64,000 nt of DNA from Thermococcus paralvinellae (lineage in GTDB: Archaea; Methanobacteriota_B; Thermococci; Thermococcales; Thermococcaceae), in the NCBI RefSeq assembly GCF_000517445.1, contig NZ_CP006965.1, positions 372,001 through 436,000 of the forward strand, written 5' to 3'. The translations under genes and the position numbers were made by a program. The notes beneath the pieces were generated by a model. That model did no database searches. It was not told the DNA's origin and was given only the letters and a program-made list of their open reading frames with translations. The first letter of the stretch is position 1; every line of letters begins with the position of its first letter. Positions 25,831 through 37,095 of the stretch are shown here, in pieces.

Positions 25831-26283
25831 ATGGTGAAACTTGGAGATACTGCACCAGACTTCAGTTTAAAAGACCAAAATGGGGAGGAATTTAGGCTAT
25901 CAGATTATAGAGGAAAAAAGGTTCTGCTCTCTTTCCATCCCCTTGCATGGACGGGTATTTGTGCCCAGCAAATGAAAGATTTGGAAGCAAATTATGGGCG
26001 TTTTGAGGAGTTAAATACAATTCCAGTAGGAATAAGCGTGGATTCAGTTCCATGCAAGAAGGCGTGGGCAGAATACTTGGGACTAAAGAAGTTGAAAATT
26101 TTAGCAGACTTCTGGCCTCATGGAGAAGTTGCAAGGCTCTATGGTGTCTTCAGAGAAAACAATGGTTTCTCTGAGAGAGCAAATATCATAGTAAATGAAG
26201 AGGGGAAGATAATATTCATTAAAGTGTACCCCATTAGAGAATTGCCAGATGTTGAAGAACTATTGGAGTTCCTTGAGGAATGA
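25831..26283 (+). CDS. peroxiredoxin (AhpC/TSA-type, thioredoxin fold)
   Basis: A 150-residue thioredoxin-fold peroxiredoxin. The peroxidatic cysteine is in FHPLAWTGICAQQM, with the conserved upstream Thr and a second cysteine in SVDSVPCKKAWA; the family start LGDTAPDFSLKDQNG is intact. It begins two bases after the oxidoreductase beta subunit with GAGGAGG as ribosome binding site, so it is in the same transcript. It probably protects the oxygen-sensitive oxidoreductase or removes peroxide formed by it. It is distinct from the longer peroxiredoxin at 20672. Confidence 0.9.
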   Translation: MVKLGDTAPDFSLKDQNGEEFRLSDYRGKKVLLSFHPLAWTGICAQQMKDLEANYGRFEELNTIPVGISVDSVPCKKAWAEYLGLKKLKILADFWPHGEVARLYGVFRENNGFSERANIIVNEEGKIIFIKVYPIRELPDVEELLEFLEE

Positions 26284-26332
26284 TATCTTTTATTAATCCC
26301 TGGGAATATAATGTTAAATTGAGGTGAATCAA

Positions 26333-27565
26333 ATGCCAAGGGTTTGGATTGAAAAAATTCTTGATGAGCCGGAACTTTATCTGCTGAGGATTGACGACGA
26401 CCAAATAAAATACTTTGAAGCAACTTGGGGAATTCCAGAAGGAATAACTTATAATGCTTACCTTCTAAAGCTAGATGGCGCTGTTGTGCTTTTTGATGCT
26501 TGGAAAAAGAACTATGCTAAAGAGTTTATAGAGGCACTCTCAAAGCTTGTTGATCCTGAAGAGATAACACACATAATAGTTCATCACACTGAGCCTGACC
26601 ACAGTGGCTCTCTTCCTAAAGTCCTCGAACTCAATGGCTATAAAGCTCAGCTTATAGGGACAAGCTTTGCAAAGAGGCTTCTTGAGGCTTTTTACGGATC
26701 AAAAGCTGTTGAAAACTTCTATACAATTAAAGACGGCGAAGAAATGAAAATAGGTGGAAAAACCTTCCGCTTTATCACAGTTCCATGGCTCCATTGGCCC
26801 GATACAATGATTACATATATAGTTGAGCATGGCTTGATGTTTAGCTGTGATGCTGGTGGTGGCTATTCCATCCCAAAGGGTATAGATGACAGCAATGAGG
26901 AAATTGTTCAAAATTATCTTCCTTACGTTACAAAGTACATAGTCACTGTCATTGGCCATTATCACAAGTACATTATCCAAAACATAGAGAAGCTTAAGAA
27001 GCTTGGAATAATCGAAGAAACGAAAATGATCTTACCTGGGCATGGTCTTATATGGAGGAAGAACCCAAAAAGAATTTTTGAATACTATGAAGCTGTTGGG
27101 GCTGGAATTCCAAAGAAAGGCAAAATTCTTGTAATTTATGACTCAATGTATGGCTTTGTTGAGAAAACTATCGAAATAGCCCTCGATGAGTTGAAAAAGC
27201 ATGGCTATAATCCAGTTGTATATAAGTTTACTGATAAAGAAGCTCCGGCAGTCAGTGATATTCTTGGTGAGGTTCCAGATAGTGAAGCACTTATAATTGG
27301 AGCATCAACATATGAAGCAAACATCCATCCAAGAGTCCGCTATGTCCTCTATGAGATAGTTGATAAGGCAAACTACGAGAAGCCTGTCCTAGTCCTTGGT
27401 GCATATGGCTGGGGAGGTGTCGCTGGGAGAGAAATTGAGACAATGATAATGAGGAGCAAGTTTGACCATGTTGATACAATTGAAGCTAAAGGAAGGGCAA
27501 CTAAGGAAGATGAAGAGAAGATTAGAGAGGGAGTTAGAAAGCTCTTAGAGAGGCTGAATAAATGA
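26333..27565 (+). CDS. fprA: flavodiiron protein (FprA-type oxygen/NO reductase)
   Basis: A 410-residue flavodiiron protein. The N-terminal metallo-beta-lactamase-like domain (1-250) carries the di-iron ligands [23 protein letters not shown] and GHG. The C-terminal flavodoxin domain starts [15 protein letters not shown] and binds FMN. It reduces O2 (or NO) to water using electrons from rubredoxin. ATG 26333 follows GAGGTGA. The NROR gene overlaps its stop codon, an arrangement that directly couples NAD(P)H, rubredoxin and this terminal oxidase. Confidence 0.94.
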
Positions 27566-28656
27566 GGCTCATTATAGTCGGAAACGGTGTTGCAGGAGTT
27601 ACGCTTGCGAAAGAGCTTTCAGGAGAGTTTGACATAACCATAGTTGATAAAGAAAACCTTCCATACTACAGCAAGCCAATGCTGAGTCATTACATAGCTG
27701 GCTTTATTAATGAAAAGGCTCTCTTTCCATATTCTTTTGAATGGTATGAAAAGAAGGATATAGAACTTAAGCTTGGAGTTGAGGCTAAAGTAATAGACAG
27801 GGCAAGGAAAAGGCTGATAACCTCTGAAGGGGAGCTTGACTATGATATTTTAGTTCTTGCAACGGGAGCAAAGGCAAGAGAGCCTATGGTGGAAGGCAAA
27901 GAGCACTTGAAGGTACTGAGAACGTTTGAAGACGCGAAGGCTATAAGAGATGCTCTTGAGCACGAAGGGGAAATAATAATTTTGGACGGTGGATTTATAT
28001 CCGTTGAGCTCGCTGGAAATCTTGCAAAGGCTGGCTATGATGTAAGGCTCATTCATAGAAGAAATACACTTCTTGGTCTTGACGAGGAACTGAGCGAAAT
28101 ATTGAAGGAGAGGCTTGAAAACGTTGGAGTTAAGTTTCATCTCAACACAAATCTAGTAAAAGCTGATGAGGGCGGTGTTTTTACAGATAAGGGCTACATT
28201 GAGGGCACACTTAAAGTGTGTGCTTTTGGTATAATACCAAATAGGGAGATTGCAATGAGGAGCGGAATACATACTGGGAGAGGTATTCTAATTGATGAGC
28301 AATTCAGAACCTCAGCGAGAGATGTGTATGCAATTGGAGACTGTGCCGAGTACAATAGTATAATCTGTGGAACTGCCAGAGCTTCTATGGAACATGCGAG
28401 AGTTCTGGCAAATCTGCTTAGGGGAAAAAAGGATAGATATAATTTTGAGCTTCGCTCCTCTGTTTTCAAGCTCGCTGATTTTTCAATCGCAATAATTGGA
28501 AAAATTAAAGGAGCAGGGCAGTGGATAAATGAAGATGTCAAAATATTTAGTGCTCAAGGGAAGATTTTGGGTGCAGTGGTTTTTGATGACTTAAAAACTG
28601 CTATGAAACTTGAAAAACTTATCAAGACTGGAGCAGGCTATAATGGGCTCTTATAA
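27562..28656 (+). CDS. NAD(P)H:rubredoxin oxidoreductase (NROR)
   Basis: A 364-residue FAD enzyme of the pyridine-nucleotide-disulfide family. The FAD motif [16 protein letters not shown], the second NAD(P)-binding strand [18 protein letters not shown] and the FAD pyrophosphate segment [12 protein letters not shown] are intact. No redox-active disulfide is present, as expected for NROR. It reduces rubredoxin, which feeds superoxide reductase, rubrerythrin and the flavodiiron protein, all within 3 kb. The start overlaps the preceding stop (ATGA). Confidence 0.9.
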
Positions 28657-28696: not shown

Positions 28697-28741
28697 TCTT
28701 TTTCGAAAATATATTGAAACGATTCGATGGGGGTGAATAGC

Positions 28742-29257
28742 ATGGCTGTGAAAAGGGAAATGACAAAGAAGTTTTTAAGCGAAGCTTATGCAGGTGAAAG
28801 CCAAGCCCACATGAAGTACCTTATTTTTGCAGAGGTTGCTGAAAAAGAAGGATTTCCAAACATCGCAAAGCTCTTTAGGGCAATCGCCTTTGCTGAGTTT
28901 GTTCACGCTAAGAACCATCTCAAAGCTCTTGGAAATGTAAAGGATACAGTTGAAAATCTCCAAATGGCCATAGATGGTGAAACCTTTGAGGTTGAGGAGA
29001 TGTATCCAGCTTATAAGGCTGTTGCAGAATTGCAAGGGGAAAATGAAGCTGTTAGGAGCACACACTATGCGTTAGAGGCAGAAAAGATTCACGCTGGACT
29101 ATACAAGAAAGCAAAAGAACTTGCAGAGCAAAAGAAGGACATCGAAATTAAGAAGATTTACATATGTCCTGTCTGTGGTTATACAGCAGTAGACGAAGCC
29201 CCAGAAAAGTGTCCAGTCTGTAATATACCGAAAGAAAAGTTTGTTGTCTTTGAGTGA
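28742..29257 (+). CDS. rbr: rubrerythrin
   Basis: A 171-residue rubrerythrin, same length as the P. furiosus protein. The four-helix di-iron domain (1-135) shows EAYAGESQAHMKYL, EFVHAKNH and EAEKIHAGLY. The C-terminal rubredoxin domain has the two iron-binding pairs ICPVCGYT and KCPVCNIPK. It is an NAD(P)H-peroxidase acceptor that reduces H2O2 with electrons from rubredoxin. ATG 28742 follows GGGGGTGA; ATG 28727 is too far upstream of that site. Own promoter and T-rich terminator. Confidence 0.96.
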   Translation: MAVKREMTKKFLSEAYAGESQAHMKYLIFAEVAEKEGFPNIAKLFRAIAFAEFVHAKNHLKALGNVKDTVENLQMAIDGETFEVEEMYPAYKAVAELQGENEAVRSTHYALEAEKIHAGLYKKAKELAEQKKDIEIKKIYICPVCGYTAVDEAPEKCPVCNIPKEKFVVFE

Positions 29258-29501: not shown

Positions 29502-29511
29502 GGTGATGAAG

Positions 29512-29859
29512 ATGTTGAGCAAAACTATAGCTTCTGGAGATTGGAAAGGAGAGAAGCACGTTCCAGTTATAGAGTACAAGAAGGATGGAGATTTGCTTGA
29601 GATTGAAGTTAGCGTTGGAAAAGAAATTCCACACCCAAACACACCAGAGCACCACATAGCTTGGATTGAACTCTACTTCCACCCAGAGGGAGAGAAGTTC
29701 CCAATTATGGTTGGCAGAGTGGCATTTACCAACCATAGCGATCCACTCACTGAGCCAAAGGCAAAATTCTACATCAGAACAAACAAGAAAGGCAAACTCT
29801 ATGCTTTAAGCTACTGTAACATTCACGGGCTCTGGGAGAACAGTGTTGATGTTGAGTGA
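29512..29859 (+). CDS. sorA: superoxide reductase (neelaredoxin type)
   Basis: A 115-residue superoxide reductase reducing superoxide to H2O2 without making O2. The His4-Cys iron site is formed by KHVPVIE, HPNTPEHH and the C-terminal SYCNIHGLWEN. The usual active-site glutamate is in GEKHVP (Glu of GEKH). It is about nine residues shorter than the 124-residue P. furiosus SOR; the deletion falls in the loop after RVAFTNH. ATG 29512 follows GAGGTGATGAAG. It is co-transcribed with rubredoxin. Confidence 0.95.
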   Translation: MLSKTIASGDWKGEKHVPVIEYKKDGDLLEIEVSVGKEIPHPNTPEHHIAWIELYFHPEGEKFPIMVGRVAFTNHSDPLTEPKAKFYIRTNKKGKLYALSYCNIHGLWENSVDVE

Positions 29860-29933: not shown

Positions 29934-30287
29934 ATGAAGATTTATAGCCCAGATAGAGAGTATCCACCTGAATATCTCGAAGTTCTTGAAGAGCTTAGGA
30001 GAATAATTGATCCCGTTACTGGTGGAGATATACTTGACTCAGGTGTTGTTGCGGGCTTAGAGGTTACCAAAGATACCTTGAAGATATGGCTCAGGTTTGA
30101 AAGCCATGCAGAATACAATATAATTGGCGAATCTCCGATAGCTTACTCCAAGATAATCGGCGACATAATGGAACGCTTTGCATTGGTTAAATTTGATAAT
30201 GTTTACGTTTATGATTTGGCTAACAATATAGTCGGAAAGTTTGAAAATAAGGGCAGGCATAGGCCAGAAGACTTAGGAGATGTCTAA
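29934..30287 (+). CDS. DUF59/MIP18-like protein, cysteine-less
   Basis: A 117-residue alpha/beta protein with the DUF59 (MIP18/SufT-like) layout: a helix with EVLEELRRIIDPVTGGDILDSG followed by VVAGLEVTKDTLKIWLRF. Unlike iron-sulfur maturation members it has no cysteine at all. It is next to and three bases from a second DUF59 gene, so the two may form a heteromer. A role in Fe-S or iron-site maturation for the neighbouring redox enzymes is inference from family and context. Confidence 0.72.
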   Translation: MKIYSPDREYPPEYLEVLEELRRIIDPVTGGDILDSGVVAGLEVTKDTLKIWLRFESHAEYNIIGESPIAYSKIIGDIMERFALVKFDNVYVYDLANNIVGKFENKGRHRPEDLGDV

Positions 30288-30290
30288 GCA

Positions 30291-30638
30291 ATGGGACTTT
30301 TTGACTTTTTAAAGCAGAAGGAACCAAAAGACGTGAAAAAGAAAGAGTTGCCCGAAGAGGTTAGACGTGTTGTTGAAATTCTGAAAAAAGTCAGAGATCC
30401 TGAAACTGAGCTGAGCATAGTGGATGAAGGTTTGGTTTATGGACTAACTGTAAAAGGAAAACTTGTCCAAGTTTTTCTCCTCATGGCTCGTTCAACTCCA
30501 GAGTGCCATTTCTGCCGGATGATAGCTATAAACGTGCAAAGGAAAATTTTGGATGAAATTATTCGTATACTTAAAGAGGAAGGATTTGACAAAGTTGAAG
30601 TTTACAATGAATTAGGGCTACTTTTAGCAGAAGAATAA
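30291..30638 (+). CDS. DUF59/MIP18-like iron-sulfur assembly protein
   Basis: A 115-residue DUF59 protein: ILKKVRDPETELSIVDEGLVYGL is the classic family block, and the C-terminal ECHFCRM holds two cysteines at the usual position. Members such as SufT and MIP18 help insert Fe-S clusters into apoproteins. It has a charged N-terminal extension (residues 1-27). Likely co-expressed with the cysteine-less paralogue upstream; AGGAG precedes ATG 30291. Confidence 0.78.
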   Translation: MGLFDFLKQKEPKDVKKKELPEEVRRVVEILKKVRDPETELSIVDEGLVYGLTVKGKLVQVFLLMARSTPECHFCRMIAINVQRKILDEIIRILKEEGFDKVEVYNELGLLLAEE

Positions 30639-30661: not shown

Positions 30662-30961
30662 TTAGAATTCGACTTTTATGCCTGTCTCTTCTTCGACCTC
30701 TTCGAATCCTTTTTTCATGTACTTGCCAAGTTCAGGGTCGAGCTTTAGGAGCAGAGCTAAGAACTCACCTACATGTTCTTTTTCCTCATTTGCAACATCA
30801 AGGAAGGTGTGTTTTACAGCTTCATCATCAATCAGCTCGGCAAACTGCTCGTAGAAGTTTATAGCATCGAGTTCAGCTATAACAGCCCAGCGAAGGGCTT
30901 GAACAATTTCGTTTTTGGACAGTTTTTTCTTGTTTATGGAAATTGGATTCAATCCAAGCAT
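30662..30961 (-). CDS. encapsulated-ferritin-like protein without encapsulin
   Basis: A 99-residue two-helix ferritin-like protein closely resembling the EncFtn family and the ferritin-like domain fused to the P. furiosus encapsulin. Glu30 (VIAELDAINFYEQ) and the E60-x-x-H63 pair (NEEKEHVGEF) have the same 30- and 3-residue spacing as the ferroxidase ligands of EncFtn. The C-terminal LDPELGKYMKKGFEEV is also typical. Such proteins assemble as annular multimers and oxidise Fe2+ inside an encapsulin shell. No shell protein gene exists anywhere in this window. GCGGTGAT precedes the ATG. It is second gene after another ferritin-like gene. Confidence 0.82.
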   Translation of the reverse strand: MLGLNPISINKKKLSKNEIVQALRWAVIAELDAINFYEQFAELIDDEAVKHTFLDVANEEKEHVGEFLALLLKLDPELGKYMKKGFEEVEEETGIKVEF

Positions 30962-31007: not shown

Positions 31008-31484
31008 TTAATCAACCTCAAGACTAAAGTCCTGGTAATCCATCCAGATGCCGGTCTTCATAACTGAATCATATTGAGCCTTTAAAAGTTCATAGTGGGC
31101 TTTCTCCACTTTAGCCAGTTCGAGAAAAATCTTTTTCACGTTCTCATCTTTTGCTTCCTCAGCAGCCTTTTCATAGAACTCCCACGTCAGCTTTTCCTGT
31201 TCCATGCCTATCTCTACCGCCTTGACTTCACTCAGGGACCCTTCATATTTTGGGCTCAGCTTTTCTAAGACTCTCTTATCAATCGTCGGAAGTTCACATT
31301 TCTCCACAATCTTCTCAACGAACTTCCTCTCAAAGACGTTCCAATGCTCAGCTTCTTCCCCCGCTAGAAATAGAAACATCTTCTTTGCCCTTTCGTCTTT
31401 GGCTTTCTTTGCCATTTCTATATAGAACCTAAGCTCAGCCTTCTCAACTTCAAGTGCCAAAGCAAGTGCTTCAAGCTCGTTCAT
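31008..31484 (-). CDS. ferritin-like (rubrerythrin-domain) protein
   Basis: A 158-residue four-helix protein with two repeated metal-binding halves: EKAELRFYIEMA with GEEAEHWNVF, and QEKLTWEFYEKAA with KVEKAHYELL. This is the standard rubrerythrin/ferritin-like di-iron ligand set. No C-terminal rubredoxin domain. It is the first gene of a two-gene operon with the EncFtn-like protein; GGTGATAAT precedes the ATG. Likely iron storage, delivery or peroxide reduction. Confidence 0.78.
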   Translation of the reverse strand: MNELEALALALEVEKAELRFYIEMAKKAKDERAKKMFLFLAGEEAEHWNVFERKFVEKIVEKCELPTIDKRVLEKLSPKYEGSLSEVKAVEIGMEQEKLTWEFYEKAAEEAKDENVKKIFLELAKVEKAHYELLKAQYDSVMKTGIWMDYQDFSLEVD

Positions 31485-32126: not shown

Positions 32127-32144
32127 ATTTAATAGTGCAAAAGT

Positions 32145-32152
32145 TTTATATA
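32145..32152 (+). promoter_or_regulatory. TATA box for the KaiC-like operon
   Basis: TTTATATA, preceded by GCAAAAG (BRE-like), lies 39 bases before the ATG at 32191. Confidence 0.6.
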
Positions 32153-32190
32153 AATCAAGTTAATGAGATAATATTCTAGAGGGAGATAAT

Positions 32191-32886
32191 ATGACTCGCA
32201 TTTCTACTGGTGTAAGAGGGTTGGACAAAATGCTTAATGGAGGGTTAATACCGGGTAGAGCATATCTCATTAAAGGTGGTCCTGGTACTGGGAAAACAAT
32301 ATTATCCATCCATTTCCTTATGGAGGGAGTTAAGAATGGGGAAAAAGTTCTTTATATAACTCTTGAAGAGCCAATTGAAATTCTCAAGGAGGATATGAGA
32401 AAATTGGGTTTTGACATAGATAACCCTCTGTTTGTAGGAATAGATGCAACCCCTGTAAAAGAGAAAAGGAGTATCTTTGAAGGATTCCACTATGAAGAAT
32501 TCGCAAAGGGTTTTACTGAGCTTGTAAGAGCCGTCAGAGAGAGATTAAAAGAGGATAAGTTTACACGTGTAGTCATTGATCCCATTACAATGATAAAGCT
32601 GACGATGGAGGATGAGCTTGAGTACAGGAGGACTTTCCTTGCATTTTTAAAGGAGATTGCAAACTATAATGTAACTTTGTTTTTGACGTCTGAAGTTTAC
32701 GAAATGAGTATTGAGGACTACTTGGTAAGCGGGGTCATAGAACTGAAAACATTTGAAACAGGCGGGAAGACGGTTAGGGGGATTAAAGTTGTTAAATTCA
32801 GAGGCAGCGACTTTGATGAAACTATGAGACCATATAAAATAACCAGCAGTGGAATTGAGGTGTACAGTGAAGAGACAATTCTGTGA
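32191..32886 (+). CDS. KaiC-like RecA-superfamily ATPase, single domain
   Basis: A 231-residue KaiC/RadB-like ATPase. The Walker A motif GGPGTGKT (29-36), the tandem catalytic glutamates in YITLEEP (about 76-79) and the Walker B strand RVVIDPIT are intact, so ATP binding and hydrolysis are expected. Single-domain KaiC-like proteins are abundant in Thermococcales and are thought to act in signal transduction rather than in a circadian clock. It starts a four-gene, partly overlapping operon with a degenerate homologue and two membrane proteins. Confidence 0.9.
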   Translation: MTRISTGVRGLDKMLNGGLIPGRAYLIKGGPGTGKTILSIHFLMEGVKNGEKVLYITLEEPIEILKEDMRKLGFDIDNPLFVGIDATPVKEKRSIFEGFHYEEFAKGFTELVRAVRERLKEDKFTRVVIDPITMIKLTMEDELEYRRTFLAFLKEIANYNVTLFLTSEVYEMSIEDYLVSGVIELKTFETGGKTVRGIKVVKFRGSDFDETMRPYKITSSGIEVYSEETIL

Positions 32887-32897
32887 GAGTGATTAGG

Positions 32898-33500
32898 ATG
32901 AAGTTTGGCATCCCCAAGCTTGATAGATTACTTGGGGAAATTAATGAAGGGAGTGTTGTGCTGATTGAGACGCTTGGGAATCTCGGTGAGGAGATAGTGA
33001 TAGAGGCACTTAAGAAAAACAGTGACAAAAGTGTTGCGTTTGTTACAAAAAGACTGAAGGAGGAGCTTGGAAAAATACCGGAGCTTAAGGATTTAAAATA
33101 TATAGTGTTTGGAGAGGACTTTGCCCCTCAGGAACTCTTTAAGATCACGTATCAGCTCAGACAAATTCTTAATGGATACCTCGTTGCATTGTTTTTCTTG
33201 CAACCCTTGTTAGTGTACCATCCACCAGAGACAGTGTATAAGTTTTTTTCTGAGGTTTCCTCAATAGCTCATGATAATAAACTTGTACTGATAGCTATAC
33301 TTGACAAGAGATTAATTGATGAAAGAACTCTTGCCATGTTTGAGAATGTCTCAACTCATGTTATTGAGATTGGTGAAGAACTTGAAAAATTCAGAGTGAT
33401 ACGTGGGATACGGATTAAAAAGTCTCCAAGAGGCTCTTCAAGTTTTTACGAGCTGGTAATTAAGGATGGAAAAGTCACCATAGGTGAGCCACTTGGATGA
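32898..33500 (+). CDS. degenerate KaiC-like protein lacking Walker A
   Basis: A 200-residue protein that aligns with the preceding ATPase from its first residues: GIPKLDRLLGEINEGSVVLIE corresponds to GVRGLDKMLNGGLIPGRAYLI of the neighbour in pattern. The nucleotide-binding loop is replaced by ETLGNLGEE (24-32), and the double-glutamate segment by SVAFVTKRL. It therefore should not hydrolyse ATP. Its C-terminal part (RGIRIKKSPRGSSSFYELVI) keeps the late beta strands. I infer a regulatory partner of the active ATPase. ATG 32898 is chosen for its position after GTGATTAGG. Confidence 0.68.
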   Translation: MKFGIPKLDRLLGEINEGSVVLIETLGNLGEEIVIEALKKNSDKSVAFVTKRLKEELGKIPELKDLKYIVFGEDFAPQELFKITYQLRQILNGYLVALFFLQPLLVYHPPETVYKFFSEVSSIAHDNKLVLIAILDKRLIDERTLAMFENVSTHVIEIGEELEKFRVIRGIRIKKSPRGSSSFYELVIKDGKVTIGEPLG

Positions 33501-34110
33501 GGAATCCTTAATAAGAGTTTTGATAAACCTAATGGTGGTGTTAAGTGTTGCATATACTGGCATTATCTTTAACCTACTTGGACAATACTTGCAGAGAGGA
33601 GAGAGAATAGTAGCCATGCAAATAGGAGGATCTGTCTTAATTGGATTTTCACTAGTTATGATGCCTATTAAAGATACGACATTAGAACTTATTTTAGGGA
33701 TTTCATGCGGTATTATAGGAACCTTTCTCCTCATATACCCACTACTTAGGTATAGGCTGGTAAAGTTTTCAAGAGTAACCGTACTTCAATGTGTTCTTAT
33801 AATATTTTCAAGTCTATTTGGGCATTTATTGGGACTACATGGGGGCGCTGTTTTAAGATCTCTTAGTTTGTTGTCTATTCTTCTATTAGTTCAAGCATTG
33901 AAATCGATACATCTGTCTGATGTGGCCTTAAAGACTATTCTAAATGCTTCACTGTGGGTTTTAATACTTTATGCTTGGCTTTGGTATCCGGCCATTAGAT
34001 ATTTTGGAAAATGTGGATATTATTTGGTATATCTTATCTACTTTGGTGCAATTTTGATGTGGTTCTTTTCAGCCATGGCGGTTCATAGCCATCTCAAGAG
34101 GTGGTTATAA
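33493..34110 (+). CDS. polytopic membrane protein of the KaiC-like operon
   Basis: A 205-residue protein with about six or seven predicted membrane helices (from INLMVVLSVAYTGIIFNLL to LIYFGAILMWFFSAMAVH) and a short charged C-terminus. No conserved enzyme motif. The preferred start is TTG 33493 with AGGTGAG four bases upstream; GTG 33484 is the alternative. Either start overlaps the end of the pseudo-KaiC gene, so the genes are translationally coupled. I do not recognise a family; the sequence resembles the membrane-sensor part of other archaeal signalling proteins in general layout only. Confidence 0.6.
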   Translation: MDEESLIRVLINLMVVLSVAYTGIIFNLLGQYLQRGERIVAMQIGGSVLIGFSLVMMPIKDTTLELILGISCGIIGTFLLIYPLLRYRLVKFSRVTVLQCVLIIFSSLFGHLLGLHGGAVLRSLSLLSILLLVQALKSIHLSDVALKTILNASLWVLILYAWLWYPAIRYFGKCGYYLVYLIYFGAILMWFFSAMAVHSHLKRWL

Positions 34111-34658
34111 TGGAATGCGTTATCATCCGGGAACTCGTTGAAATAGTAATTGGAATCTCAGTTATATCACTGTTTTTTTCAAAAAAATTTCCTATAATGT
34201 ACCGATCACTACTTGCTCTTACAATTGGGGTTTTCTTCTTAGCTGAGCCCCTCACAGATCTTATTGTTGGAAATTACTCAATTCTCTTTGAGTATATTGG
34301 AGCTCTCGTGTTACTCTGGATAATAGAGAGATTTATTGCTGTGAATACTGGAACTTCATTAAGCCCGTATTACCTCGGAATGTCTGTGTTTGCTGGCATA
34401 ACCCTCATTACAGTAACAAAAAATCCAACCTTTTTACATGCTGGGACTCTCTTAACGTTTGCCCTTATAACTATAAGGACTGCAGTTGCTGTGGATGTTG
34501 TTCAGTGGAAGCACAAGAATGCATTCCTTGCATCTTCACTTTTTCTGCTTGTGGCTACAGTGGCGTTTTTTATGAATTTCTTAATCTTGAGTGATTTTCT
34601 TTACTTTGGGGGCATATTCATTTTTATGCTTGCTGTGATAGAGATAACGGGGGTATAG
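34110..34658 (+). CDS. second polytopic membrane protein of the KaiC-like operon
   Basis: A 182-residue protein with about six predicted membrane helices (VEIVIGISVISLFF to GGIFIFMLAVIEITG). Its ATG at 34110 shares a base with the stop codon of the previous gene (TAATG) and follows GAGGTGGTT. Size and topology resemble the neighbour, suggesting the two form a membrane unit. No motif or cofactor site is visible. Function unknown. Confidence 0.6.
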   Translation: MECVIIRELVEIVIGISVISLFFSKKFPIMYRSLLALTIGVFFLAEPLTDLIVGNYSILFEYIGALVLLWIIERFIAVNTGTSLSPYYLGMSVFAGITLITVTKNPTFLHAGTLLTFALITIRTAVAVDVVQWKHKNAFLASSLFLLVATVAFFMNFLILSDFLYFGGIFIFMLAVIEITGV

Positions 34659-34707: not shown

Positions 34708-34953
34708 ATGAACATATTCATCCCCCTACTAGCAGGAGTTGTATGTGGATATTTGTTCAGGAGAAGGATTAACATAAACCTTGATAAGCCTATGAGTGCA
34801 ACTTTATTGCTGTTAATTTTCTTTATGGGAGTTGAAGCAGGTAAAGTTGAAATAAACGCCTTAAACTTGTTCATCGCATCATTGACATTTGCGGTTCTGA
34901 CTATTTTGGGTAGTTTGTTTTTTGCAGTGCTGTTAGGAGGCAGGTTAAGATGA
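34708..34953 (+). CDS. LysO-family exporter, N-terminal component
   Basis: An 81-residue, three-helix membrane protein (IFIPLLAGVVCGYLFRRR, ATLLLLIFFMGVEAG, LTFAVLTILGSLFFAVLL). It corresponds to the N-terminal part of the single-chain LysO (YbjE, DUF340) lysine exporter, whose remaining part is encoded by the next gene. The two ORFs overlap by four bases and must be co-translated. GAAGG lies three bases before the ATG. Confidence 0.72.
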   Translation: MNIFIPLLAGVVCGYLFRRRININLDKPMSATLLLLIFFMGVEAGKVEINALNLFIASLTFAVLTILGSLFFAVLLGGRLR

Positions 34954-35531
34954 GCTTTTTGTACTTGGTTTTAGCCTCTCTTTTTGCTGGGCTTTTAATT
35001 GGGAAATACACAACCCTCGAATTTGGTAGCTTATATGAAGTAATGCTATATCTGTTAATCTTCATTATTGGACTCGACTTGGGAAAAAGTAAAGGAGTGG
35101 GGGAAATTAAAAAGCTTGGAAAGATTGCATTGATTCTGCCACTTGCCACTGTAATCGGTTCTCTGCTGGGAGGACTTTTAGCGTCATTTTTGCTTAATAT
35201 TCCAATAAAATGGGCATTAGGGATTTCAGCAGGATTCGGATGGTATTCATTGACAGGGCCTCTCCTAGCACAGTACTCGACTGTTTATGGTGTAATCGGA
35301 TTTTTGGCAAATTTAACAAGGGAGATACTAACGATTTTGTTTTATCCGCTGGCTATTAAGAAAATACCCAAGGAACTTGCAGTTTCAATGGGAGGAGCTA
35401 CGACAATGGATTCTACATTGCCAGTCATTGTAAAATTTGGAGGAAGAGAAATTACGATAATTGCTTTTGTTCATGGCTTTATCCTGACAGCAATATCTCC
35501 ATTTTTAATTCCTCTTATACTTCAGCTTTGA
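34950..35531 (+). CDS. lysO: LysO-family exporter, C-terminal component
   Basis: A 193-residue membrane protein with about six helices and the family segments LLIFIIGLDLGKSKG, GISAGFGWYSLTGPLLAQYS and MGGATTMDSTLPVIVKFGG. The last two match the conserved core of LysO exporters, which pump out lysine and toxic lysine analogues. Together with the preceding 81-residue protein the total length (274) approaches that of the single-chain bacterial protein. The order and overlap imply a two-subunit version. Confidence 0.82.
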   Translation: MSFLYLVLASLFAGLLIGKYTTLEFGSLYEVMLYLLIFIIGLDLGKSKGVGEIKKLGKIALILPLATVIGSLLGGLLASFLLNIPIKWALGISAGFGWYSLTGPLLAQYSTVYGVIGFLANLTREILTILFYPLAIKKIPKELAVSMGGATTMDSTLPVIVKFGGREITIIAFVHGFILTAISPFLIPLILQL

Positions 35532-35591: not shown

Positions 35592-35771
35592 ATGAGCAAC
35601 GAAGAAGTTATTTTGGAAGTTATGAAAAAAGCTGGAAAGCCGCTCAAAAGCGCTGAAATTGCTGAGATGACTGGCATACCAAAGAAAGAAGTTGACAAAA
35701 TCATTAAAAAGCTGAAGAAGGAAGGAAAGATAATCTCACCAAAACGCTGTTATTATGCTCCTGCCGAGTGA
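35592..35771 (+). CDS. small winged-helix DNA-binding protein
   Basis: A 59-residue winged helix-turn-helix protein: EVILEVMKKAGKPLKSAEIA is helix 1-2, MTGIPKKEVDKIIKKLKKEG the recognition helix region, and KIISPKRCYYAPAE the wing. Nothing beyond the DNA-binding domain is present, so it probably acts as a dimeric local regulator or nucleoid-associated factor. ATG 35592 follows GGGGTGAT. Its last 19 bases overlap the convergent ferritin-like gene. Confidence 0.8.
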   Translation: MSNEEVILEVMKKAGKPLKSAEIAEMTGIPKKEVDKIIKKLKKEGKIISPKRCYYAPAE

Positions 35772-36340
35772 TTATTCTTTTTCTCTTTATCTTTCATGAG
35801 TTCTTTAATAAGCTTCTGGAGTTCTTCTTCGGCTTTTGCTTTTTCATATATTTCATACTCTTTTGAAACAAAATCATAGTGGTAACGTTCATCGTTTGCA
35901 AGTTCCAGAAATATCCTCTTATGCTCTCGGTTTTCGACATTTTTTTCAAGGTATAAATATATCTCTTCTGCAAGTTTTTCGGCTTCCATTGCGATTTCAA
36001 GAATATTCTTCAGTTTATATTCTCTCTCTTCAAATGTCTTTTTCCAGCTCTCAATTTTGATGTCTCTTGGTTCTTCATTTGGGAAAAGAGTTTTAAAAAT
36101 CTCCATAACTTTCATATCATGGGATTTCTCCATCTCAATGAATTCTTTAAATTTTTCTTTATGATATGGGCTGGGGATGTTCTCATAAAGGAAGGTGTAA
36201 AGTTCCGTCGCGTCTCTCTCCCCTTTGATGATATAGCTCAGAATATCCTTAAGGGGCATTTTAGTAATTTGTGCTAGAAGTTCCTTTACTTTTTCTTCAA
36301 TTTCAGCTTTTTTCATAAAAACATCCAATGGAGTTTCCAT
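35753..36340 (-). CDS. ferritin-like protein with lysine-rich tail
   Basis: A 195-residue helical protein. Two di-iron half-sites are visible: KGERDATELYTFLYE with MEKSHDMKVM, and AMEAEKLAEEIYLYL with NDERYHYDFV. The C-terminal 30 residues are Lys/Glu-rich (KELMKDKEKKNNHSAG). ATG 36340 (METPLDVFMKK) is chosen because GAGGGGG lies just upstream; an ATG eleven codons earlier lacks such a site. It belongs to the same superfamily as the products at 22425, 30662, 31008 and 36458. Confidence 0.72.
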   Translation of the reverse strand: METPLDVFMKKAEIEEKVKELLAQITKMPLKDILSYIIKGERDATELYTFLYENIPSPYHKEKFKEFIEMEKSHDMKVMEIFKTLFPNEEPRDIKIESWKKTFEEREYKLKNILEIAMEAEKLAEEIYLYLEKNVENREHKRIFLELANDERYHYDFVSKEYEIYEKAKAEEELQKLIKELMKDKEKKNNHSAGA

Positions 36341-36457
36341 AATTGCCCCCTCGTCATTATAATATTTTTCCACTTTAAAATCTTTTTTTGCTAAATTTCA
36401 TCCAACTTTCAAAAATTCTAAGAAAAAATTTGTTAAATAAAATACCGGAGCACTAAG

Positions 36458-37021
36458 CTATTGTTTATATTTCTCAAAAAGCTTTTTGAGCAATATGCTA
36501 TGTTGTTCTTCATTGTTAGCTATACTTTCCATAAGTTGCTTGATAATTGGGTGGGAAACTTTTTTAGTCAATTTCTTATATACATTAGCCATTTCTTTTT
36601 GAAGTTCTAGATATTTTTCTAAAATTTCTCTAATTTCTTCCAGCTTTTCCTCTGGTATTACTGCTGTTTCTGGAAACTCTTTAAAGTACTCTTCTAGAAC
36701 CTCTATGGGTGGAATTCTCTCATTCATTACACCAAACTCTAAAGGCATTGCAATCATTGGAACTCCTGGGATTAAAACAGTATTATCTGCTATTGCTTCA
36801 CCTTCAAATTCTTCAATGAGATCTAAAGCTTCGCTGTAGGATTTCTCAAGGGCTTCCATTATATTTTTGTGGAGCACGGTATCAATTGTAATTCTCAGGA
36901 ATAGATTTTTGATATCCACATACTCTGGCTCTTTAAGTTTCTTCATACCCCTTATGTATTCTTTTTCTGCTTTCTTTTCTACCTCCTTAGCCTTTTCTAC
37001 AAGCTCAATAAGTCTTTCCAT
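36458..37021 (-). CDS. divergent ferritin-like helical protein
   Basis: A 187-residue largely helical protein. KKAEKEYIRGM and TVLHKNIMEAL near the N-terminus and ANNEEQHSILLKKL at the C-terminus are spaced like the metal-binding helices of ferritin-like proteins. The central region (FEGEAIADNTVLIPGVPMI to PEEKLEEI) is an insertion not seen in its neighbours. The family call is tentative. ATG 37021 follows the strong GGAGGTGAAAGGTG. It is divergent from the L44e operon. Confidence 0.6.
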   Translation of the reverse strand: MERLIELVEKAKEVEKKAEKEYIRGMKKLKEPEYVDIKNLFLRITIDTVLHKNIMEALEKSYSEALDLIEEFEGEAIADNTVLIPGVPMIAMPLEFGVMNERIPPIEVLEEYFKEFPETAVIPEEKLEEIREILEKYLELQKEMANVYKKLTKKVSHPIIKQLMESIANNEEQHSILLKKLFEKYKQ

Positions 37022-37095
37022 CACCTTTCACCTCCATAATAGTTTAATAACATTTTGTATTTAAAACTTATGGTAACTCCCTCTAAGCAAAAACA

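Follow-up and report, generated by a model that had tools for sequence, protein, structure and literature searches.

The four packed genes at 32191-34658 on the + strand of the window (the whole stretch of DNA that was analysed, 64,000 nt of Thermococcus paralvinellae) encode a KaiC-type ATPase (P1), a KaiC homologue without a Walker A motif (P2) and two polytopic membrane proteins (P3 and P4), and they are embedded in an oxygen-defence island of superoxide and peroxide defence genes (Table 1). Our best reading, held with about as much belief as doubt, is that they form a membrane-tethered KaiC/inactive-KaiC signalling module for oxygen or redox stress; it is supported by the predicted fold of P2, its pairing with KaiC, the confinement of P4 to these operons, linkage to superoxide reductase (SOR) and a branch of the family that adjoins a CoA-disulfide-reductase-type gene. 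Against it, gene proximity does not establish function, and common ancestry accounts for much of the synteny. An earlier note on this DNA had described four ORFs of this content, all of which are present; its boundaries cover the operon and leave out the redox-defence island around it.

Table 1. Features of the operon and its surroundings (positions in the window).
Feature	Position	Strand	Basis
Peroxiredoxin (AhpC-TSA)	25831..26283	+	PF00578, E 2.7e-34
Flavodiiron protein (ODP beta-lactamase and flavodoxin)	26324..27565	+	PF19583, PF00258
NAD(P)H:rubredoxin oxidoreductase (NROR)	27562..28656	+	PF22353 (PF1197-like_C)
Rubrerythrin (Rbr) with rubredoxin-like domain	28727..29257	+	PF02915, PF21349
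Superoxide reductase (SOR)	29503..29859	+	PF01880, E 3e-35
ORF, weaker relative of the FeS-assembly-type protein at 30291..30638	29934-30287		Similarity of both ORFs
FeS-assembly-type protein	30291..30638	+	PF01883
Second rubrerythrin-family protein	30662-30961		
Rubrerythrin-family protein	31008..31484	-	PF02915
GNAT gene	between the rubrerythrin-like gene at 31008 and the operon		
Probable archaeal TATA element, within AAAGTTTTATATAAATC	32143..32160	+	Read from sequence
P1, single-domain KaiC-type ATPase	32191..32886	+	PF06745, E 3e-49; motifs; PDB KaiC matches
P2, predicted inactivated KaiC (iKaiC), DUF835-related, without Walker A	32898..33500	+	AlphaFold2, Foldseek, homologues
P3, predicted 7-helix membrane protein, paralogue of SOR-linked membrane protein	33484..34110	+	Model, family, tree
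P4, membrane protein of about 6 TM helices, only in these operons	34101..34658	+	Family matches
Lysine exporter LysO, split into separate ORFs for its N and C parts (81 and 193 aa)	34708-35531	same as P4	
Rubrerythrin/ferritin-like protein	35753..36373	-	PF02915
Further rubrerythrin/ferritin-like protein	36458-37024		

The tight junctions described in the earlier note, a spacing followed by two overlaps, were recovered. P1 and P2 are 11 nt apart. By comparison with relatives, P3 most likely begins at GTG 33484 (MSHLDE...), the start used in its family, which gives a P2-P3 overlap of 17 nt. Between P3 and P4 the overlap is 1 nt (TAATG), rising to 10 nt with GTG 34101, the more likely P4 start judging from relatives. 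The TATA-like element before P1 is probably the operon's own promoter; a Shine-Dalgarno-like GAGGGAG lies between it and the P1 start codon, and a TATA-like box is similarly placed at loci L039 and L041.

By its sequence, P1 (231 aa) is assigned to the KaiC ATPase family PF06745, scoring well above the cut-off (167.8 versus 26.6 bits) and carrying Walker A (GGPGTGKT), Walker B (VVID) and the catalytic glutamates (LEE). These motifs and KFRGS are invariant or nearly so among 20 homologues. KaiC structures in the PDB match P1, and its KFRGS aligns with the KFRG/KLRG/KMRG of KaiC.

P2 (200 aa) has ETLGNLGEE at the position of P1's GGPGTGKT, and the Walker A motif G-x4-GK[ST] occurs in none of 46 P2-type proteins, so that its loss from the family is old and stable. 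The P2 sequence alone shows weak kinship: DUF835 (PF05763) matched at E 3e-4 with 21.0 bits against a gathering cut-off of 33.1, and DUF835 matches at E<0.01 were obtained for nine of 22 family members (best 3.6e-7). With a score under the Pfam cut-off and no TM helix, P2 is not counted as a DUF835 member. Profile-profile comparison of P1 with P2 was collinear over their length with E 4e-4 at a probability of just 34%, and a profile search of the PDB with P2 returned nothing useful; matches came from fold comparison alone. The AlphaFold2 model of P2, built from a 12-sequence alignment (pLDDT 91.5, pTM 0.89), had FlaH/ArlH (E 5.1e-11) and KaiC (E 8.3e-11; TM 0.72-0.84) as its top Foldseek matches in the PDB. 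This is a confident prediction of a RecA/KaiC fold, on which the earlier note had made its view of P2 depend. Residues D136, R138, R172, K174 and P177 are invariant in a 22-row alignment, and K174 aligns to K202 of P1's KFRGS in the P1-P2 profile alignment. In KaiC the KFRGS-type region contacts the ATP of the adjacent subunit, and the lysine that P2 has kept would be in keeping with trans action by an inactive member of a mixed ring. Given its predicted KaiC fold and the family-wide loss of Walker A, P2 is a predicted inactivated KaiC, or iKaiC in the term of Galperin 2018 (PMC5847659).

P2 homologues are present in 33 of the 94 Thermococcales genomes (34 loci), counted without a fragment in G088 and weak DUF835-type matches, and in 11 of the 57 genomes of the order containing an Archaeoglobaceae MAG, counted without a marginal match in G165; the scan of the genome collection used a 10-row alignment, the 22-row one being too diverse. 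KaiC lies directly upstream of P2 at 42 of the 46 loci read, Archaeoglobales included, and the others are at contig ends (L126, L130) or are real exceptions (L046, L127). In a tree the P2-paired KaiCs group together, and most of the remaining KaiCs of the genome fall elsewhere; two sequences, L008 and the longer protein of L124, are misplaced on very long branches. P2 is tied to one KaiC subfamily and the pairing is near-obligate. P3 and P4 follow P2 at 24 of the 34 Thermococcales loci and, with the pairing counts, this conserved order excludes a chance arrangement. The earlier note had treated the four genes as one set, to be doubted if they occurred independently in related genomes: the KaiC/P2 pair bears this out and the membrane genes do so only partly, because the other 10 loci lack them.

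Several loci depart from the common arrangement. L046 (G047:C47) carries iKaiC-P3-P4 without KaiC, after a small thioredoxin-like gene and a gene for a 657-aa membrane protein, and G047 has a second locus, with KaiC, elsewhere in its genome. Among the Archaeoglobales loci (L124-L135), several include, next to the pair or between its members, a second inactive KaiC-like protein of about 201-238 aa, and some then carry other membrane proteins. The KaiC genes of L064 (G028), L071 (G060) and L061 (G070) are frameshifted or interrupted, through decay or sequencing error. A P2-P3 fusion in G028 (L064, a 407-aa ORF) was considered as Rosetta-stone evidence and set aside, because the KaiC of that operon is broken by frameshifts; the C-terminus of P2 is also lost.

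Neither P3 nor P4 matched any family in Pfam or NCBIfam. All 26 matches to the P4 family lie inside KaiC/iKaiC operons. P3 was modelled as a 7-helix bundle (pLDDT 86.8) that had no significant structural match in the PDB; a rhodopsin-like fold was rejected, the best match (E 0.05, TM 0.34) not being significant. No conserved haem, cysteine or metal motif was found in P3, and no obvious ligand site. Homology between P3 and P4 was not supported (hhalign probability 3%).

Members of the P3 family also occur outside the operon, with some 80 matches in 61 genomes. The family is represented in 32 of the 33 genomes with P2 (Fisher p 3e-7, a value inflated by the relatedness of the genomes). For 49 matches there is no P2 within 10 kb; of these, 37, from 36 genomes, are encoded on the strand of SOR and follow it by less than 800 nt, as in the KaiC-free string NROR-Rbr-SOR-(P3 paralogue)-FeS-FeS-Rbr at L136, L137 and L140. 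In a maximum-likelihood tree, P3 proper (encoded directly after iKaiC) and the SOR-linked paralogue form separate groups, and a few tandem copies fall between them. The paralogue looks like a core member of the SOR cluster. This unannotated 7-helix protein adjoins SOR at, for example, L136:5896-6970, L137, L138 and L140; at L051 and L054 (G075, G083) the P3-P4 pair is tandemly duplicated after one KaiC/iKaiC pair and is followed by an SOR-type paralogue. The T. paralvinellae genome has the KaiC-linked P3 copy only (SOR at 29503-29859).

The operon itself is also linked to SOR. KaiC is the first gene after SOR in eight other genomes (L045, L051, L053, L054, L060, L061, L062 and L064), and of the 22 P2 loci on an SOR-bearing contig, 14 are at most 10 kb from SOR, 17 at most 18 kb and five far away, where one place in 2 Mb would be expected to fall within 10 kb in an estimated ~1% of cases. 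Linkage to the SOR/rubrerythrin/NROR cluster, with SOR at most 10 kb away, is seen for the T. paralvinellae operon and for 13 other loci and is not universal; the link to SOR occurs in five genera and several arrangements, with counts inflated by shared descent. The branch without P3 and P4 (L065, L067-L071) adjoins a CoA-disulfide-reductase-type flavoprotein, and its genomes retain the SOR-linked P3 paralogue elsewhere. In one genome without the module (G005, L141), SOR stands beside a CoA-disulfide-reductase-type gene, and a KaiC protein of 461 aa is encoded less than 3 kb from SOR, a further instance of KaiC near redox genes.

On our reading, P1 would be the active ATPase of the module, and P2, its obligate dead paralogue, would probably assemble with it into a mixed ring or stack, where it could line a P1 ATP site without hydrolysis and link P1 with the membrane. 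P3 and P4 would form a polytopic membrane complex for sensing or scaffolding. A change in the membrane, in redox state or in O2 might then shift P1 to another nucleotide or phosphorylation state, and P1 would in turn tune the surrounding reductive detoxification system (SOR, rubrerythrin, NROR and flavodiiron protein). Complex formation, ring geometry, signalling direction, ligand and output target are features that we infer. The earlier note had suggested an ATPase regulated by a dead paralogue and coupled to a two-component membrane sensor; the dead KaiC-fold paralogue, its tie to one KaiC subfamily and the conserved adjacency of the membrane genes bear this out in part, and regulation of P1 by P2 and a sensor role of the membrane proteins stay hypothetical. 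A more specific version, put forward tentatively and with somewhat more doubt than belief, is a dedicated archaeal system that signals oxygen or superoxide stress through a 7TM/6TM membrane receptor of two subunits, on which active and dead KaiC are joined in one complex, with the paralogous 7TM protein an unrecognised core component of the Thermococcales SOR cluster.

The most serious alternative, which we nevertheless think unlikely, is generic archaeal signalling of the KaiC/DUF835 type with an unrelated input, the proximity to SOR being inherited gene order without function. None of the Archaeoglobales P2 loci inspected has an SOR neighbour, several Thermococcus genomes carry the pair at a distance from SOR, and DUF835 proteins with about three TM helices are plentiful in the T. 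paralvinellae genome, all of which would fit; an unrelated input is harder to reconcile with P3 paralogues that adjoin SOR in 36 genomes even where KaiC is absent, and with a second branch of the pair that adjoins another redox flavoenzyme. The same KaiC-free paralogues, in many genomes, could also be taken as part of a membrane scaffold on which P3/P4 and the SOR-linked protein dock SOR, rubrerythrin and NROR, with KaiC/iKaiC as an assembly or remodelling ATPase like ArlH of the archaellum, and ArlH/FlaH is indeed the best structural match of P2. The docking is hypothetical, however, and the loops that P3 and P4 could offer for docking are only short; we regard such a scaffold as improbable.

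Downstream, LysO begins 50 nt after P4. Its split into N and C parts is natural, because relatives carry the same split. In T. paralvinellae and at L039-L044 and L079-L081 both parts are encoded after P4 in the same direction, as would be expected if the operon controlled this exporter, but LysO is absent after the operon in other lineages and such control is very improbable. A timing device of the cyanobacterial type is scarcely credible, since it has KaiC homology alone in its favour, whereas P1 is a single-domain KaiC without a CII domain and no KaiA- or KaiB-like gene was recognised among the neighbours; the cyanobacterial KaiABC clock combines a double-domain KaiC with KaiA and KaiB.

The signalling module that we favour has known relatives in its parts. 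KaiC and inactivated KaiC homologues (DUF835, MEDS) have been proposed as archaeal signalling hubs (Makarova, Galperin and Koonin, 2017, mBio, as cited in PMC5847659). The operon resembles these in combining an active KaiC with a Walker-less homologue of proposed signalling role, and departs from them in that its iKaiC stands alone as a 200-aa protein, keeps to one KaiC subfamily and is accompanied by two separate polytopic membrane proteins in an oxygen-defence locus. Given that proposal, the claim of the earlier note that no established system has exactly this content was too strong. DUF835 proteins share with P2 a distant sequence match, an inactivated KaiC-like domain and membrane association, but those of T. 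paralvinellae have their TM helices fused to the domain. Known or proposed archaeal KaiC regulators include ArlH of the archaellum (PMC4858521) and CirA in Haloferax (PMC13286277); ArlH/FlaH is a single-domain KaiC homologue at a membrane platform and the closest solved fold to P2, although the operon has no ArlI/ArlJ partners and the Walker A motif is missing from P2. With the SOR/rubrerythrin/NROR detoxification cluster of Thermococcales the operon shares a neighbourhood and a membrane-protein family, yet KaiC genes are no described part of that cluster. In the literature searched, DUF835 was scarcely mentioned and no description of a tie between KaiC and superoxide reductase was found; an earlier account of the operon may exist. 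The parts fall within the already proposed class of archaeal KaiC signalling proteins, and the tie to SOR appears to be undescribed in that literature.

Oxygen sensing in anaerobic archaea is poorly known, and, chemotaxis aside, two-component systems are nearly absent from most Thermococcales (PMC5847659). The analysis also brings to light a 7TM family that lacks annotation and is often the immediate neighbour of superoxide reductase. If our reading is true, a KaiC/iKaiC/membrane module in an oxygen-defence locus would provide a concrete input or output for the proposed KaiC hubs, in a system small enough for genetic testing.
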